Virus record (IMG/VR): IMGVR_UViG_3300035199_000763
Location: 1 to 24,207 of that record
DNA: 24,207 bases
Reading direction: 5' to 3' (one strand)
DNA from: a virus
Part shown: positions 13,291 to 21,138 of the stretch, piece after piece
Layout: each line of letters opens with the position of its first letter
Numbering within the stretch: the first letter of the stretch is position 1
The notes under the pieces: generated by a model
Database searches by the model: none
Told to the model about the DNA's origin: nothing
What the model saw: only the letters and a program-made list of their open reading frames with translations
Made by a program: the position numbers and the translations under genes

Positions 13291-13320
13291 AAAAAAAAGA
13301 CAAGACTATCCGGCCTTATC
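13291..13320 (-). terminator. Rho-independent terminator before the tape measure gene
   Basis: On the transcribed strand, GATAAGGC (13320-13313) and GTCTTGTC (13306-13299) pair over 8 bp, including two G-U pairs, around a 6-nt loop. Eight T residues follow directly (13298-13291). It starts 7 nt after the chaperone stop and ends 45 nt before the tape measure ATG. It could lower tape measure expression relative to tube and sheath, which are needed in far larger numbers. Confidence 0.65.
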
Positions 13321-13326
13321 TTGGAA

Positions 13327-13617
13327 CTACTTTAAATGTTGCGGCATTTCAGGTGCGTTATCAGGAGTAAGAGTAGTACCGCCTGAAGAGTTGTTATATG
13401 CACTCTCTGTCGCTTCGGCTTCGGCTTCAAGCTGCTTCATTAGTCTTTCAACGAACCACTTTCTAAGGCCAACGGGCAAGTTATAGGCTTCAGCGAAAGA
13501 CCAGCCTCCGGAATATTTCAAAAAGAAAAATTGCTCGTAGACTAGCTCCATGTACTCATCACTCAGGCCAAAAAAAGTCCACCGAAAGTGGAACCTCCAT
13601 CTCTTGAGAGTGATCAC
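13327..13617 (-). CDS. Tail assembly chaperone, downstream frame (likely frameshift product)
   Basis: This frame overlaps the end of the preceding gene by 59 nt and is offset by +1 from it. The part after the overlap (about 80 residues: LSDEYMELVYEQFFFLKYSGGW-type sequence, then LPVGLRKWFVERLMKQ and an acidic, Ser/Thr/Pro-rich tail) looks like the small helical domain of T4 gp26/gp51-type and other tail assembly chaperones. The GTG at 13617 lies inside the upstream gene without a clear ribosome site. The first residues (RWRFHFRWTFFG) look like out-of-frame translation of that gene, so I think it is normally made only as an extension of the upstream protein. An internal ATG at 13551 (MELVYEQ) is a less likely independent start. 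Confidence 0.7.
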   Translation of the reverse strand: MITLKRWRFHFRWTFFGLSDEYMELVYEQFFFLKYSGGWSFAEAYNLPVGLRKWFVERLMKQLEAEAEATESAYNNSSGGTTLTPDNAPEMPQHLK

Positions 13618-14425
13618 AGTCAGTACATATAAACTCCTGAGACATGTTAAGGTCAGGCATCGCTAAGCGATAAATAGTACGCATATGTCGAGCATCCGCT
13701 GATGGCATATTTTCTACAAGGTGGCCAATATCCTTAAGATCCGTGGATTCATTCACTGAAACGATGGTCGTTTCTAGCTGGCGCGTAATCGCCCGATCGC
13801 GGCGATTCTTCCTATCCGCGTCGGCCATATTAGACAGCTTCTTTTCGTCGTACCCGTTCAGAAGTTTAAACGCTACTTCAACACCGGCACGAGGCAGAAC
13901 GGTGGTAAACGTACAATCGTCGTTCTCTCTCACATTTAGACCCTCAAAACTTCGACCTGAGTACGTCTCAAGCTCGTTTAAATCAAAGCTGTGGTCTCCA
14001 GATATTCCGCATGCGGGACATTCCACAGCCGTCGTATAAATGTTTCCGTATGAAGATGCACGAATTGCCACAATCAAAGCGTTCTTGTCTCCCATCAACA
14101 GAGTTTGGGGATCAATGGCTTTATTGCAAATTAAGCTCTGAATTACTCGGTCTAAGGCAATGCCTTTTTTAAGCAATGTGCGCGAAGTGAGGATATCCTC
14201 TTCTTTCGCAGTCATTTGCTTAATTTCAATCGTATCTTCATTGTGAAGAGGGTGCCCTTCCGGATAATATCGACCCCCTGACGGTAAATCAACAAACTCT
14301 GTTGGCACCACAAAGGAGAATGCTGCTGTTTCCGGAGCATCATCCTTTGCTAATTGTTGGATTGGCGCGCCCGTATCTTCGGGCTTCTTTTTTGTGTCGC
14401 CGACACGTCCTCTATTTCTTGACAG
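13559..14425 (-). CDS. Tail assembly chaperone, gp26-like with zinc ribbon; probable CTG start
   Basis: From 14311 it encodes 250 residues, and from the CTG at 14425 it encodes 288. It matches the T4 gp26 / T4 baseplate protein pattern: PTEFVDLPSGGRYYPEGHPL, then IEIKQMTAKEEDILTS, then LLMGDKNALIVAIRASSYG. Two CXXC pairs (C98/C101 and C229/C232 counted from 14311) should bind one zinc. Between tail tube and tape measure this is the place of the lambda G/GT-type chaperone that coats the tape measure. The GTG at 14311 has no ribosome site, and the frame stays open upstream. CTG at 14425 has GAGGTG four bases before it and yields a plausible basic N-terminus (MSRNRGRVGDTKKKP). The stop is 9 nt after a T7 run. 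Confidence 0.72.
   Translation of the reverse strand: MSRNRGRVGDTKKKPEDTGAPIQQLAKDDAPETAAFSFVVPTEFVDLPSGGRYYPEGHPLHNEDTIEIKQMTAKEEDILTSRTLLKKGIALDRVIQSLICNKAIDPQTLLMGDKNALIVAIRASSYGNIYTTAVECPACGISGDHSFDLNELETYSGRSFEGLNVRENDDCTFTTVLPRAGVEVAFKLLNGYDEKKLSNMADADRKNRRDRAITRQLETTIVSVNESTDLKDIGHLVENMPSADARHMRTIYRLAMPDLNMSQEFICTDCDHSQEMEVPLSVDFFWPE
13568..13579 (-). other. Probable programmed frameshift site (T7 run) in the chaperone overlap
   Basis: In the upstream frame the codons are GAC TTT TTT TGG CCT GAG TGA. The seven T residues occupy 13576-13570. Skipping one T (+1) or backing up two (-2) joins Phe-Phe to Gly-Leu-Ser-Asp of the downstream frame. Phe tRNA re-pairs perfectly on the T run in both cases, whereas a -1 slip would meet a C. 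The fusion from the CTG start would be about 365 residues. Transcript slippage on T7 is an alternative. Confidence 0.6.
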
Positions 14426-15144: not shown

Positions 15145-18100
15145 TTAATCTTCGAATGAGGCGCCTGTGCTAGTGATCACAAAGTCAATTGCGATATATT
15201 CGATGGCCCTGGCAGGCTTGACCATGATCTTGGCGTACATGATATTTTGATCAATCAGGTCTGGAGTCGTCGTTGTCTCGTCCAAAATCAACCTATAATC
15301 AACAATACCATAGTTTGTCATTGTGTTCTGCAGGAACGGCTCTACGAGGCCCTTAAAGCGTGTCCACGTGGCGGGCACATTTTGCTCAAAAAGAACTTGT
15401 GTAGAAAGAATAGAAATCTGCTTCTTCATGAAGATAACGAGCCTTCTCACATTAATCCTATCTAGAGCGGAGGCACGTTCCTGTAATGTCTTCTGCCCAA
15501 ACACCACGACTCCACTTGAGGGGAAGGATGCGATGGGGTTAATTCGACCATCATATAGCGTATCTCTTTCCTTAGAATTAAGGCGTTCGCTTACGTTTGT
15601 AACCGGGATCCCTGCGGCGCCTTCTGTAAGGCCTCCACGATTGAACCCGGCCGGTGCAAACCATACTGCATTAGACTTGGCTTCCGAGGAGGCTAGAACG
15701 CCCATCATGGCCACTGTAGGCGGGATCCATACAAGGGCGCCAGTGTCTTCGTCGCGAGTCTGAACCCACGGGTAGAATGCAGCACCATAGCTAGAATCAA
15801 TGCGCCTGTCTTTGAGTGCATTGGCGGCCTGCACGGGTGTGGTTCCCAAGCGATCGGCCTTATTGGCATAGTAGCGCTCTGCAGACGGAATATAGACATT
15901 TGGAAGATCGACAAGGGACATAACATCCCCTCGTTCTTCACACAGTCTGATCATGTGAGTCGTGAGCGAATCAAGCGTCAAGCCCGGCACTGCTAACAAG
16001 TTCATATCGATAAAGTCAGGATTTGCAACGGTGTCGATGGCTCTCCGATAGGTGTGGTAAGCATAGCTATTGTCTTCTGTCGAAGATGCGTCCATTCCCT
16101 GATTATACATGGGATCTGGCTTTGTAATGTCGAAGCCGTCCGATCCTCCCCAGAATGGGGCAGTAAATTGATTGTAATTGGCATCCAGCAAGTCGGTGTA
16201 CGACGCGCTTGTTACCAAGCCACTCGTTTCGGATTGGCGAGAGCCGGATCCCCAGTAATAACGACCGTCAGATCCGGATACAATGTCATCCATGGAAAAC
16301 ACATATGCGGCCTGTGAGTCAGTCGCTTGGGTGCCAACTGGATCGTCTGGATAATTGGCGTACAAAAGCATTTGTGGGTCTGAAATTCCTGTCCCCACGG
16401 AGGTGCTTCCTGTTGCTCTGGTGGATGTTATACCAAAATACGCATTAGTTGGGTTAGTAAGTTTACCATTCGATGCGTAGGTGCGCAAGCGAACTTGTGG
16501 CCAACTAAGCGCCAGATCCAGAGCAACTCCCGTTCCTGTGACAAAGGCGCTTCCGGACCAATACGGAGTATCCGTGTTGAATAATGTGGTGGTGCCCATT
16601 CCAGCTTGGTCTTGGCGTGCGAAGATGAATCTGCCGGCTGTGGGATCTTTGGAATTCTTTTGTGCTAATGTGTCCCGTGCGCCCCCAGTGGTGCGTGGAT
16701 TGTCTAGCTGAATGCCTTCCGTTGTTGTCGGCTTTGGTGGGCCCCAGAATCCGAAAGGTAGAAGGCTGGCATCTGTGGCGCCCGCTTCTACGTCTGCGTT
16801 CATTTCTGCACGCATATACTTGGACTTGTTTGCGTATTCGCCATAGGTTTTAAGTCTCTTTGAGACATTATCCCAGCTAATATATTGATCGCCAATGCGA
16901 CGAGCAACGAAGTTGGGAGAAGATGGATCTAGATTGAGATTGTCAAATCTTTCCAAAATGACCACCTTATTGTCAGTATCGCGAAGATCTCGAATTACAA
17001 TAGAAAAGCTTCCATATGGGTTCGATGTGGTGTTTGATTGTCTTAGGCGAGTAATAGATACTTTGCAATTCTTGCGAAGCCAATCTCCATGACTCAATCC
17101 AACCAACCGGAATAGTTTTTGCATATTTTGTGGATAGAAAGATGCTTGGGGGCCGCGGTCCTGGCCGATAAACCAGCCAGCAATGGCATCTCTATAGGCT
17201 TGCCCCTCCATGTTCGCGGGGGATGTGGTAGCGGATCCGCTGCTTGCGATGGGGTAAATAATGCCAACCAAATTAGTCTTGGTAGCTAGCCCGTCGTCTC
17301 TTAAATCCTGTTCAAAGGACTCCCCGAGCCAATAGTCTTTCTCGACGGCAGATGGATAGAAGTTTTGGCTGCTTTTAAGTTGAGGGTTCGTGTTGAGCTT
17401 CTTGCGAATGAAGTTGGCAGAAGAATCGTCAAAGTTAACGCTAGCGTTTGTTGTCGCATTAGATGTTTGAACTTGAACATGAAAATTGCCGGCGCTGTCA
17501 GCGGTGATCGCCGTGCCCATTGATGCGGTTGTTGAGTAGCACGACCAGTTAGGGAGATACTGGCCTACAACGGCTGTGGCGCCGTTCGCGGCGGATCCAG
17601 AAACGGCTCGGCCGCCGTAAATAGAGCCTGAAAGCAGCGGGGCGCCGTCTTGACAATAAATGATCGCACCCAAAGATGCAGTAGCGCTCTGTGTGGCGCT
17701 TGAGCCCGACTCAAACACCCAAAGACCATACGCACCACCAAGAGTGGTGATGGCACTACCTCTAGAGGAGTCGGCATCGTTGGTGGTTTGCCAGCCTGCT
17801 GCGGCCTCTCCGGCTGCAGCTTTACCGGCAACTGTTTGAGTACCGAGCAATCGAATGTAGGTAAGAGGTGCAATATTTGCCCTCAAGAAAGCTTTGGCGG
17901 CATATGTTCCGTACATTGGAGACTGGTAATTGCCATTACGGGAAACATCGCCTTTTCCGGCGCCGGGTACTGTGGATCCGAATACTTCAACGAATTCAGA
18001 GTATGACTGTACTTGGACGGGTCTCATTCCCGGGCCACGTGAAGCGCGACCAATGACGACAGGGCCAATGGCTACGGCGGATTCTGGGCGAAAACTATTA

Positions 18101-18156
18101 TCTATTTCGTTAATAAAAACGCCCGGGGAGACAAACTTAAATCTTTTAATTGACAT
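15145..18156 (-). CDS. Tail sheath protein, paralog B
   Basis: A 1003-aa contractile sheath subunit. The N-terminus KRFKFVSPGVFINEIDNS and IGPVVIGRASRGPG are the sheath opening. A long middle part (about 125-690) holds the surface domains. The conserved C-terminal sheath core runs from about residue 699 to the end: the helix and strand region with YYANKADR, then GVVVFGQKTLQERASALDRINVRRLVIFMKK, then LFEQNVPATWTRFKGLVEPFL, then EYIAIDFVITSTGASFED. It is paralogous to the gene directly upstream, 21 nt away. T4 gp18 has 659 residues, so this is about half as long again. The ATG at 18156 has an AAGGA site. Confidence 0.95.
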   Translation of the reverse strand: MSIKRFKFVSPGVFINEIDNSFRPESAVAIGPVVIGRASRGPGMRPVQVQSYSEFVEVFGSTVPGAGKGDVSRNGNYQSPMYGTYAAKAFLRANIAPLTYIRLLGTQTVAGKAAAGEAAAGWQTTNDADSSRGSAITTLGGAYGLWVFESGSSATQSATASLGAIIYCQDGAPLLSGSIYGGRAVSGSAANGATAVVGQYLPNWSCYSTTASMGTAITADSAGNFHVQVQTSNATTNASVNFDDSSANFIRKKLNTNPQLKSSQNFYPSAVEKDYWLGESFEQDLRDDGLATKTNLVGIIYPIASSGSATTSPANMEGQAYRDAIAGWFIGQDRGPQASFYPQNMQKLFRLVGLSHGDWLRKNCKVSITRLRQSNTTSNPYGSFSIVIRDLRDTDNKVVILERFDNLNLDPSSPNFVARRIGDQYISWDNVSKRLKTYGEYANKSKYMRAEMNADVEAGATDASLLPFGFWGPPKPTTTEGIQLDNPRTTGGARDTLAQKNSKDPTAGRFIFARQDQAGMGTTTLFNTDTPYWSGSAFVTGTGVALDLALSWPQVRLRTYASNGKLTNPTNAYFGITSTRATGSTSVGTGISDPQMLLYANYPDDPVGTQATDSQAAYVFSMDDIVSGSDGRYYWGSGSRQSETSGLVTSASYTDLLDANYNQFTAPFWGGSDGFDITKPDPMYNQGMDASSTEDNSYAYHTYRRAIDTVANPDFIDMNLLAVPGLTLDSLTTHMIRLCEERGDVMSLVDLPNVYIPSAERYYANKADRLGTTPVQAANALKDRRIDSSYGAAFYPWVQTRDEDTGALVWIPPTVAMMGVLASSEAKSNAVWFAPAGFNRGGLTEGAAGIPVTNVSERLNSKERDTLYDGRINPIASFPSSGVVVFGQKTLQERASALDRINVRRLVIFMKKQISILSTQVLFEQNVPATWTRFKGLVEPFLQNTMTNYGIVDYRLILDETTTTPDLIDQNIMYAKIMVKPARAIEYIAIDFVITSTGASFED
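17353..17400. repeat. 48-nt perfect match to paralog A (20371-20418)
   Basis: These 48 bases are identical to 20371-20418, covering exactly 16 in-frame codons (residues 253-268 of paralog B, 241-256 of paralog A, KLNTNPQLKSSQNFYP). The flanking codons encode similar residues but differ at many synonymous sites. Confidence 0.9.
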
Positions 18157-18177: not shown

Positions 18178-21138
18178 TTAATCCTCAAAAGATGCCCCAG
18201 TTGACATAATCACAAAGTCAATTGCAATATATTCAATGGCACGTGCAGGTTTGACCATGATCTTCGCATACATAATGTTCTGATCAATAAGATCGGGGGT
18301 GGTGGTGGATTCATCCAAAATTAGCTTATAATCAACAATACCATAATTAGTCATAACAGTTTGTAAGAATGGTTCCACGAGACCCTTAAACCGTGTCCAT
18401 GTAGCCGGAACATTCTGCTCAAAAAGAACCTTGGTCGAGAGCACAGAAATTGTCTTCTTCATAAAGATCACTAACCTTCTGACATTGATTCTATCCAGCG
18501 CTGACTGTCTTTCTTGCAACGTCTTCTGTCCAAATACCACGATCCCGCTTGAAGGGAAGGACGCAATAGGGTTGATTCTGGCTTCATATAGAGTGTCGCG
18601 ATCATCCTGATCGAGCCTCTCTGTAACGCTGCTTACAGTAATGCCGGCGGCGCCTTTAGTCAGTGTTCCACGGTTATATCCCGCGGGAGAAAACCATACC
18701 GCATCCGTTGTTTTTTCTGAAGAGCCAAACACCCCGAGTGCTGCAACCGTGGGGGGGATCCACACGGATGCGCCGTTGTTTTCATCCCGGGTCTGGACCC
18801 ATGGGTAATATGTGGCGCCGTAACTAGAGTCGATTCTCCTGTTCTTTAAGGCATTTGCAGCCTGTACTGGTGTGGTGGCGCGCCTACTGGCCTTATTGGC
18901 ATAATATCGCTCGTGACTAGGAAGGTAGACATTCGCCAGATCGACGAGTGCGAGAGTGTCTGCTCTGTTTTCAGCAACACGTATTGCGTGAGTGGTGAGC
19001 GAGTCGTTGGTGAGACCTGGCACCGTCAGCACATTCATGTCAATACTGTCGGGATCAGCCACAGTGTCTATGGCGCGCCGATAAGTATGATAGACATAGC
19101 TGTTATCTTCTGTTGAAGAATCATTCATAGAATTGTTGTACATGGGATCGGGCTTCGTGATGTCAAATCCGTCGGATCCGCCCCAGAAAGGAGCAGTAAA
19201 ACGATTATAATCCGCGTCGAGTATGTCAGTATAAGAACTGCTGCCGAGGGAGGAGCCGTTCAATCGAGAGCCAGAACTCCAGAAGAACACTCCACCAGAG
19301 CCCGATACAATATCATCCATGGAAAACACATATGCATAGGAATTATATCCGGTGCCGGCAGTTAGGGCCGGATCATCAGGGAAGTTGGCATACAAAAGGT
19401 CAGACGGATCTGACAAGCCAGTTCCCGGAGAAGTGCTACCGGTAGCTCGGGTCGACATAAATCCAAAGTATGCTTCTGTCGGATCGGTAAGTTTGCCGGC
19501 CGAAGCGGAAACTCTAAGGCGAGTGTGGGGCCATTTAAGCGCAACATCAACACCAAATCCAGAACCAGTCAAAAGCGGAGTGGCGGTGAAAGCTAATCCG
19601 CTGGTGGTGTCGTATGCCAAATCTTGAGCGCCGCCCAACTGAATCTGATCTATATACACAAACTGATTATGTGCAGCATTCGTCGGTAGGGCGTGTGTGC
19701 CGCCAGCACCGGCGCCGGTACCAGTGCGTAATCCGGTGATTGTTGTAAACTGTGGTGGGCCGAAATACCCAAACGGAACCAGTGATGCGTCTGTAGCTGC
19801 AGCCTCGACGTCGGAGTTCATCTCCATGCGAATGTATTGGGACATGTTGTCGTATTCGCCATACGTCTTAAGTCTCTTACTTACGTTATCCCACCTAACG
19901 TATTTGTCTCCAATCCTGCGTGCAACAAAGTTTGGTGACGCGGGGCTCAGATTCAGGTTATCAAATCTTTCCAGCACTACAACATTATTATCAGTGTCTC
20001 GAATATCTCTCAGTACGAGAGAGAAACTACCATAATCGTTTGTCGTGGTATTCGATTGGCGGATCCTTTCGATAGAAATCTTGCAATTCTTATGTAGCCA
20101 TTCGCCTTGGCCGCGGCCATGCACACGAAAAAGTTTTTGCATATTTTGTGGATAAAAATTAGCACTAGGGCCTGTGTCTTGGCCAATAAACCAGCCAGCA
20201 ACCGCATCCCGGGATGACTGCTTAAGCATGTTTTGTGGGCCCGTTGTTACGGTGCCGCTGAGAGCGATTGGGTAAACAACCCCCACCAAGCTTCCGGTGG
20301 AAATAAGCCCATCGTCTCGAACAGCTTGTTCAAAAGATTGACCAAGCCAATAGTCCTTCTCAACGCTCGTTGGATAGAAGTTTTGGCTGCTTTTAAGTTG
20401 AGGGTTCGTGTTGAGCTTATTTCTAATAAAGTTATCTGAATTAGTGTCAAAGCTTACGCTTGTCAGCGTCGTTCCGTTGCTGGTTGAAACATACAAGTTA
20501 AACACTCCTTGAGCATCGCTTGAAATCAGCGCACCCAGAGAAGATGTAGTGTCGTACGTGGCGCTCGTTTCGGCGCCGCTGCCTTTTGAGGTCTTGCCGC
20601 CATAAATAGAGCCACTAAGGCCTACATATCCATCCTGACAATAGATAATGGCGCCCAACGAAGCAGTTACCGATTGGTACGCTGCCGGAGAGCCTGAAGG
20701 AAACAGCCATAGGCCGTATGCGCCGCCGATGGAGCCGGCTGAAGTTCCTTTTCCGGGGTTATAAGTTGTTTTCCAGCCTGCGGCAGCTTCTGCGCCGGCA
20801 GCTTTGCCGGCATTTGTTTGCTCGCCAAGCAGGCGCACATAAGTTAAGGGTGCCACATTTGAGTTCAGGAACGCCTTGGCGGCGTAGGTACCGTACATGG
20901 GTGACTGAAAGTTTCCATCTCGGGAGATGTCGCCTCCCATGTTTCCCGGTACCGTCTCGCCAAAGGTGCGTACAAAATCAGAATACGAGCTTACTTTTAT
21001 GGGGCGCATTCCGGGCCCTCTTCTGGCACGTCCGATGACGACTGGGCCTATGGCCGCGGCCGATTTAGGGATCGTACTGTTGTCTATTTCATTGATGAAG
21101 ACACCAGGAGAGACAAACTTAAATCTTTTTACCGACAT
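18178..21138 (-). CDS. Tail sheath protein, paralog A
   Basis: A 986-aa contractile sheath subunit, closely similar to paralog B along most of its length. N-terminal SPGVFINEIDNS and IGPVVIGRARRGPGMRP and the C-terminal core (from about residue 679) match nearly residue for residue. The regions around 125-235 and 465-580 differ in length and sequence (for instance TGTGAGAGGTHALPTN here). These should be the outward-facing, variable domains of the sheath. It is first of the two in transcription, with an AAGGA site 9 nt before the ATG at 21138. Both copies are full length without frameshifts, so both are probably used. Confidence 0.95.
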   Translation of the reverse strand: MSVKRFKFVSPGVFINEIDNSTIPKSAAAIGPVVIGRARRGPGMRPIKVSSYSDFVRTFGETVPGNMGGDISRDGNFQSPMYGTYAAKAFLNSNVAPLTYVRLLGEQTNAGKAAGAEAAAGWKTTYNPGKGTSAGSIGGAYGLWLFPSGSPAAYQSVTASLGAIIYCQDGYVGLSGSIYGGKTSKGSGAETSATYDTTSSLGALISSDAQGVFNLYVSTSNGTTLTSVSFDTNSDNFIRNKLNTNPQLKSSQNFYPTSVEKDYWLGQSFEQAVRDDGLISTGSLVGVVYPIALSGTVTTGPQNMLKQSSRDAVAGWFIGQDTGPSANFYPQNMQKLFRVHGRGQGEWLHKNCKISIERIRQSNTTTNDYGSFSLVLRDIRDTDNNVVVLERFDNLNLSPASPNFVARRIGDKYVRWDNVSKRLKTYGEYDNMSQYIRMEMNSDVEAAATDASLVPFGYFGPPQFTTITGLRTGTGAGAGGTHALPTNAAHNQFVYIDQIQLGGAQDLAYDTTSGLAFTATPLLTGSGFGVDVALKWPHTRLRVSASAGKLTDPTEAYFGFMSTRATGSTSPGTGLSDPSDLLYANFPDDPALTAGTGYNSYAYVFSMDDIVSGSGGVFFWSSGSRLNGSSLGSSSYTDILDADYNRFTAPFWGGSDGFDITKPDPMYNNSMNDSSTEDNSYVYHTYRRAIDTVADPDSIDMNVLTVPGLTNDSLTTHAIRVAENRADTLALVDLANVYLPSHERYYANKASRRATTPVQAANALKNRRIDSSYGATYYPWVQTRDENNGASVWIPPTVAALGVFGSSEKTTDAVWFSPAGYNRGTLTKGAAGITVSSVTERLDQDDRDTLYEARINPIASFPSSGIVVFGQKTLQERQSALDRINVRRLVIFMKKTISVLSTKVLFEQNVPATWTRFKGLVEPFLQTVMTNYGIVDYKLILDESTTTPDLIDQNIMYAKIMVKPARAIEYIAIDFVIMSTGASFED
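20371..20418. repeat. 48-nt perfect match to paralog B (17353-17400)
   Basis: This is the partner copy of the identical tract in the downstream sheath gene. It lies in the same orientation, about 3 kb away, and is a possible substrate for recombination or gene conversion between the sheath genes. Confidence 0.9.

Follow-up and report, generated by a model that had tools for sequence, protein, structure and literature searches.

A probable programmed +1 frameshift at a conserved U-run linking two overlapping frames of a gp26-like tail assembly chaperone gene

Two listed open reading frames on the minus strand of a stretch of viral DNA (13559-14311 and 13327-13617) share 59 nt at an offset of +1, which raises the question of how the second of them is translated. 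The stretch, referred to here as the window, comes from IMG/VR as a virus record with a length of 24,207 bases. Tail-chaperone frameshifts of -1, -2 and +1 are all known (PMC5009743), and an earlier note on this DNA had claimed that the two frames are fused by a programmed frameshift with either +1 or -2 geometry. The reading favored here, to which we assign a probability of about 0.85, is that a programmed +1 frameshift at a conserved U-run would allow one gene to yield a short and a long tail assembly chaperone.

Gene Order and the Overlapping Frames

The first of the two frames belongs to a gp26-like gene (13559-14425, minus strand; PF12322, phrog_150), which would encode the short, zero-frame form of the tail assembly chaperone. 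The locus sits between a T4 gp19-like tube gene (15076-14501, minus; phrog_4542) and an ORF of 1046 aa in the tape-measure position (13245-10105, minus), which is the placement of a chaperone of the G/GT kind, and the annotated order in relatives is sheath, tube, gp26-like gene, (small ORF), tape measure or long tail protein. Both this placement and the programmed fusion of the two frames, as put forward in the earlier note, are supported on sequence evidence. If translation starts at the CTG at 14425, the gp26-like product has 288 aa and the fused product 365 aa. The natural start of the gene (14425-14404, minus) is without an ATG; the CTG, which follows ACGAGG, begins LSRNRGRVGD, and one relative (L040) carries an ATG at the equivalent position (MSRNRDRLGS). 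It is possible that the CTG is used as a start or that it reflects a sequence error. Further upstream, two tandem sheath genes (15145-18156 and 18178-21138, minus) each encode about 1000 aa and are 69% identical over their full length. A short family A DNA polymerase (395 aa, PF00476; 2852-4039, minus) is found on the same stretch as the tail genes, as is a gp32-like protein (1164-1928).

The 3' end of the gp26-like gene reads GTT CCA CTT TCG GTG GAC TTT TTT TGG CCT GAG TGA on the minus strand, with the putative slip site TTT TTT TGG at 13568-13576, its T-run at 13576-13570 and the zero-frame TGA at 13561-13559. One base forward at the T-run, the reading continues as GGC CTG AGT GAT GAG TAC ATG ..., forming an extension of 80 open codons in the +1 frame (13330-13569, minus; GLSDEYMELVYEQFFFLKYSGGWSFAEAYNLPVGLRKWF...) up to a stop (13329-13327) before the tape-measure gene. 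The +1 frame is actually open from about 13662; past the zero-frame stop it remains open for 232 nt versus 17 nt for the other frame, and when the bases of the extension are shuffled it remains open in about 1% of cases. On the coding strand within a gene, the T7 run is the single case in the window, the other coding-strand T-run being the tail of a terminator (13298-13291). The base preceding the run is C, so that no canonical -1 heptamer (X XXY YYZ) is formed. The overlap, the offset, the T-run and the TGA shortly after it had all been described previously and were confirmed in the sequence.

Family Identity and Fold

The short form matches PF12322 (T4_baseplate) with E=3.6e-16 and 60 bits (cut-off 24.5), in agreement with the T4 gp26-like identity proposed beforehand, and phrog_150 is also matched. 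T4 gp26 and T4 gp51 both match PF12322. The short form can be aligned to T4 gp26 (E 5.5e-6), which terminates ...EFFELL at the slip position, and the gp51 family is collinear with the fused form in a whole-protein profile comparison (E 1.4e-6); for the extension alone, the comparison with the gp51 tail was not significant (E 0.22, control 0.27). The fusion from Microcystis phage Mel-JY01 matches phrog_150 over positions 7-274 of 282, across the junction. An AlphaFold2 model of the short form has a pLDDT of 86.6, and its top fold match in the PDB is the HK97 tail assembly chaperone 2ob9, which is a weak match (prob 0.87, E 0.22); a sequence search of solved structures gave no match.

Conservation of the Slip Site and Direction of the Shift

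For comparison within the clade of the window, 80 IMG/VR relatives of 55-69% identity were taken. The relatives are the best matches to a handful of queries and not a census, and owing to kinship within clades the counts are not independent events, so that the figures given here describe strength and not probabilities of independent events. The slip site is invariant in the clade, where TTTTTTTGGCCT is retained, together with an offset of +1, by every relative with a readable end. The comparison covered 191 distinct junctions: 176 run on in the +1 frame and 2 more are also open in +1, 12, all from jumbo phages, use -1 at T TTT TTC, and 1 has no recognisable site. The variants seen elsewhere (TTT CTT TGG, TTT CTA TGG, CTT TTT TGG and TTT TTT TAC) all retain a UUU or CUU able to shift one base forward. 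A search through 255 loci for a broken T-run or for separate, well-spaced genes, which the earlier note had named as evidence that would speak against it, left the idea standing. A scan of a genome collection with a diverse alignment gave no usable stretch.

Silent sites are near saturation in the clade (pS 0.79, 52 members), and both slip-site TTT codons are single-codon there; they account for two of the only three single-codon columns among 37 conserved-residue columns, the third being a GAG located 21 nt upstream. At other positions in these genes phenylalanine is encoded by TTT in 81% and by TTC in about 19% of cases, versus 100% TTT at the slip site. Furthermore, a T directly before the run occurs at 0 of 174 +1 sites, where about 91 would be expected judging by the same residues at other positions in these genes, and at 12 of 12 sites of the -1 group. 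Since a T at this position would make a canonical -1 heptamer, its avoidance argues for selection on the choice of frame. The jumbo phages in question (CBB-like, PA5oct-like, Atu_ph07 and Vibrio 2.275; L094, L257-L266, L089, L091, L092) have a gp26-like gene joined to the following frame via the canonical -1 site T TTT TTC, and in their records the small ORF is annotated separately, in another form, or is absent.

The best surviving alternative to a +1 shift is a programmed frameshift of -2 on this run, a type known from Mu (PMC5009743), which would lead to D-F-F-F-G-L with one extra residue. Its net frame is identical to that of +1, and on TTT TTT T a P-site UUU could re-pair perfectly two bases back. 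The relatives, however, are less accommodating: in four Streptomyces phages (CTG TTT CGC or CTG TTT CAG) and in Streptococcus phage GXN1 (TTC TTT CGT) a shift from UUU to UUC is possible by +1, whereas -2 requires a middle-base mismatch and is unworkable, and at TTT CTA T it would be poor. A tandem -2 slip would moreover require precisely the T before the run that is missing from all 174 sites, and the upstream hairpin of the clade, described below, should impede backward slippage, hence -2 (PMC6321510). A +1 shift is compatible with every relative that has a site, while -2 fails in several, which leaves -2 improbable. Of the two geometries originally offered, +1 is preferred on the basis of the relatives' sites, and the pattern spans several phage groups.

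The Extension and Its Possible Starts

The pN/pS of the extension is 0.32 in the window's clade and 0.49 and 0.55 in two other groups, and in the shifted frames it is 0.98-1.79 over the groups, with 0.98 and 1.79 in the clade. Conservation is 96-99% for the Gly-Leu that opens the extension and for a Tyr roughly six residues further along. These values indicate that the +1 extension is under purifying selection and conserved from its first residue. As a candidate for its identity, DUF6760 (PF20546) was tried and rejected, scoring 16.5-16.7 bits, below the cut-off of 27.

A conserved second frame could also be translated without any frameshift, as a separate small protein, by reinitiation at an ATG in the extension frame (13549-13551, minus) through translational coupling. 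This ATG follows the TGA by 7 nt in the window, and in most of the clade (42 of 52 members) an ATG is found soon after the stop. The earlier claim that the downstream frame has no credible start was therefore overstated for the window, but it holds for many relatives: between 2 codons before and 12 codons after the site, no start codon is present in 58 of 70 members of the Flavobacterium phage immuto group, 45 of 49 members of the Mel-JY01 group and 8 of 52 members of the clade. The second frame is conserved and coding, with the start missing in most of two groups and present in many clade members, and it is because relatives lack a start codon, not from the window alone, that a case against an independent start can be made. 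In addition, the G, L and Y conserved in the +1 frame precede the ATG in the clade, and reinitiation leaves both the frozen silent TTT codons and the avoided preceding T unexplained. We consider it highly unlikely.

The annotated genes immuto35A_232 (L083:4833-4943) and SP15_046 (L088:4755-4874) open partway through the extension, and their annotated starts are probably wrong. In Mel-JY01, in immuto and in three contigs of about 195 kb, no further gene for the long form could be located; each of these five genomes or contigs (160-196 kb) carries a single G part plus a single T part in a different frame, and none has the separate long-form gene of the T4 type. The window, at 24 kb, is a fragment.

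The Upstream Element and Downstream RNA Features

Directly upstream of the slip site a hairpin can form between CCAC (13591-13588) and GTGG (13582-13579), spanning 13579-13591 on the minus strand and ending 2 nt before the T-run, and a Shine-Dalgarno-like GGAGGT (13593-13598, minus) lies 16 nt before the run. In relatives the arms of the hairpin are CCGC and GCGG, and the consensus of the clade, with few exceptions, is GGAGGTN-CCGC-TNNNN-GCGGA(C/G)-TTTTTTTGGCCT. The 4-bp pairing is kept in 99.3% of cells, the single compensatory change being that of the window (CCAC/GTGG), and one pair is broken in L003. At the hairpin, the CCG and GCG codons each have just one or two exceptions among 45 distinct sequences (background in the same genes: 18% CCG for Pro and 17% GCG for Ala), and the silent third positions of the neighboring Val and Leu, which serve as an internal control, vary freely. 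GGAGGT is present in 37 of 38 distinct clade sequences and GAGGT in all 38, and its GAG is the upstream single-codon column mentioned above; GGAGGT may act as a Shine-Dalgarno-like element, or may pair with ACTTTT or GGCCT. A hairpin of -4 kcal/mol or below is predicted for 51 of 53 members of the window's clade versus 10 of 49 and 20 of 72 in the sister groups. In an E. coli 70S system, upstream hairpins adjacent to the E site promote +1 frameshifting and reduce -1 frameshifting (PMC6321510). Downstream RNA structure gave no signal as a stimulator (mean z -0.05 to -0.84, like controls).

A hairpin followed by a T-run is also the make-up of an intrinsic terminator or attenuator, which could mainly lower transcription of the tape-measure gene, the frame relation being incidental, and a pattern scan lists TCCACTTTCGGTGGA-CTTTTTTT as terminator-like. 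The hairpin, however, is typical of this clade only, and the T-run and the +1 frame persist without it; a T before the run, which would extend the run, is avoided, and a better terminator is located after the extension, which makes this explanation very unlikely. The latter terminator-like hairpin, with a T8 (13291-13322, minus), lies between the stop of the extension and the tape-measure gene. Equivalent hairpins directly follow the extension in 15 of 29, 13 of 30 and 2 of 28 relatives of three groups and in 0 control stretches, which fits the gene and its extension being one unit. Transcriptional slippage on the 7-base homopolymer, which would generate mRNAs lacking one U or gaining two, is excluded for practical purposes by the interrupted runs (TTTCTTT), since 28 distinct sites of the same family are TTT CTT TGG and others TTT CTA TGG, without a long run, and since it would favor longer runs, of which none above 7 was seen.

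Proposed Mechanism

By sequence, the site, the frame, the extension and the upstream element are conserved, whereas we infer that a frameshift takes place, how often it does so, that it goes in the +1 direction and what it is for. Most ribosomes would read the gp26-like gene up to the TGA and produce the G-like short form. In a minority, the peptidyl-tRNA-Phe on the P-site UUU, with UGG waiting in the A site, would slip by +1 onto the overlapping UUU and read 80 more codons, resulting in a G-T-like long form with the junction ...D-F-F-G-L-S.... The hairpin of the clade, positioned at the E-site side, and perhaps also GGAGGT, would favor the forward slip and hinder the backward one. By analogy to G/GT of lambda, the short form would serve to coat the tape-measure protein and the long form, which is less abundant, to recruit the tube protein, and both would depart before completion of the tail.

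A broader proposal, for which we see the odds as about even, is that GGAGGT, followed by a hairpin at the E-site side of U7GG, constitutes in the window's clade a composite forward-frameshift signal new to phage tail genes, tuned for +1 and guarded from -1 by the absence of a U before the run, and that, across the gp26 family, the shift has changed direction, +1 in some members and -1 in others, along with the make-up of the site.

Comparison With Known Systems

The tail assembly chaperones of T4 are reported to be gp26 and gp51 (Vladimirov, Gautam and Davidson 2022, via PMC10885494, PMC12846349). Two papers that cite this work state that some T4-like phages have a short and a long chaperone gene instead of frameshifting (PMC10885494) and that chaperone genes of T4-like phages are known to contain -1 signals of the poly-T type (PMC12846349). 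The frameshifted tail chaperone is a kind already known; within the literature searched, the +1 site at poly-U in this group of gp26-like genes and the upstream element look new. T4-like phages are cited as making tail chaperones without frameshifting, but many gp26-like phages apparently use one gene and a +1 slip, and the gp26/gp51 pair of T4 would then represent one of two ways of meeting this need. A +1 slip would also account for a small ORF for which annotations give a separate hypothetical protein, a start at unconvincing codons or nothing at all, and the groups compared here provide natural sequence sets for probing what determines the direction of ribosomal slippage.

The locus resembles that of lambda gpG/gpGT (-1) in the order of tube, short chaperone with an overlapping extension and tape measure, and in that only a shift close to where the first gene ends gives access to the extension (PMC5009743), but here the shift would be +1 (or -2) at UUU UUU UGG, the family is PF12322 and not lambda G, and the upstream hairpin is clade-specific. 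As for T4, the short form aligns with gp26 and the fused form is collinear with gp51, whereas T4 has two genes on opposite strands, one being a short copy and the other a long, fused one, and the window has one gene and an overlapping frame. The -2 chaperones of the Mu type arrive at the same net frame, yet the sites of the relatives are consistent with +1, and several of them are inconsistent with -2. In prfB (release factor 2), which shifts by +1 at CUU UGA, the P-site tRNA likewise slips forward on a U-rich codon with a slow codon waiting in the A site, an upstream duplex acts as a stimulator, and one sister group here even has CUU followed by UGG; the differences are that the waiting codon is the sense codon UGG and not UGA, and that GGAGGT lies 16 nt before the run with a hairpin in between. 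The chaperones of Vandenendeviridae, with -1 at GTTTTT (PMC12846349), are likewise encoded by a myophage gene with a poly-T site near its 3' end, but the shift is in the opposite direction. The same layout is found in the CBB-like jumbo phages identified in this work, where a T precedes TTT TTC at the -1 site, in contrast to the run of the +1 sites, which is never preceded by a T.
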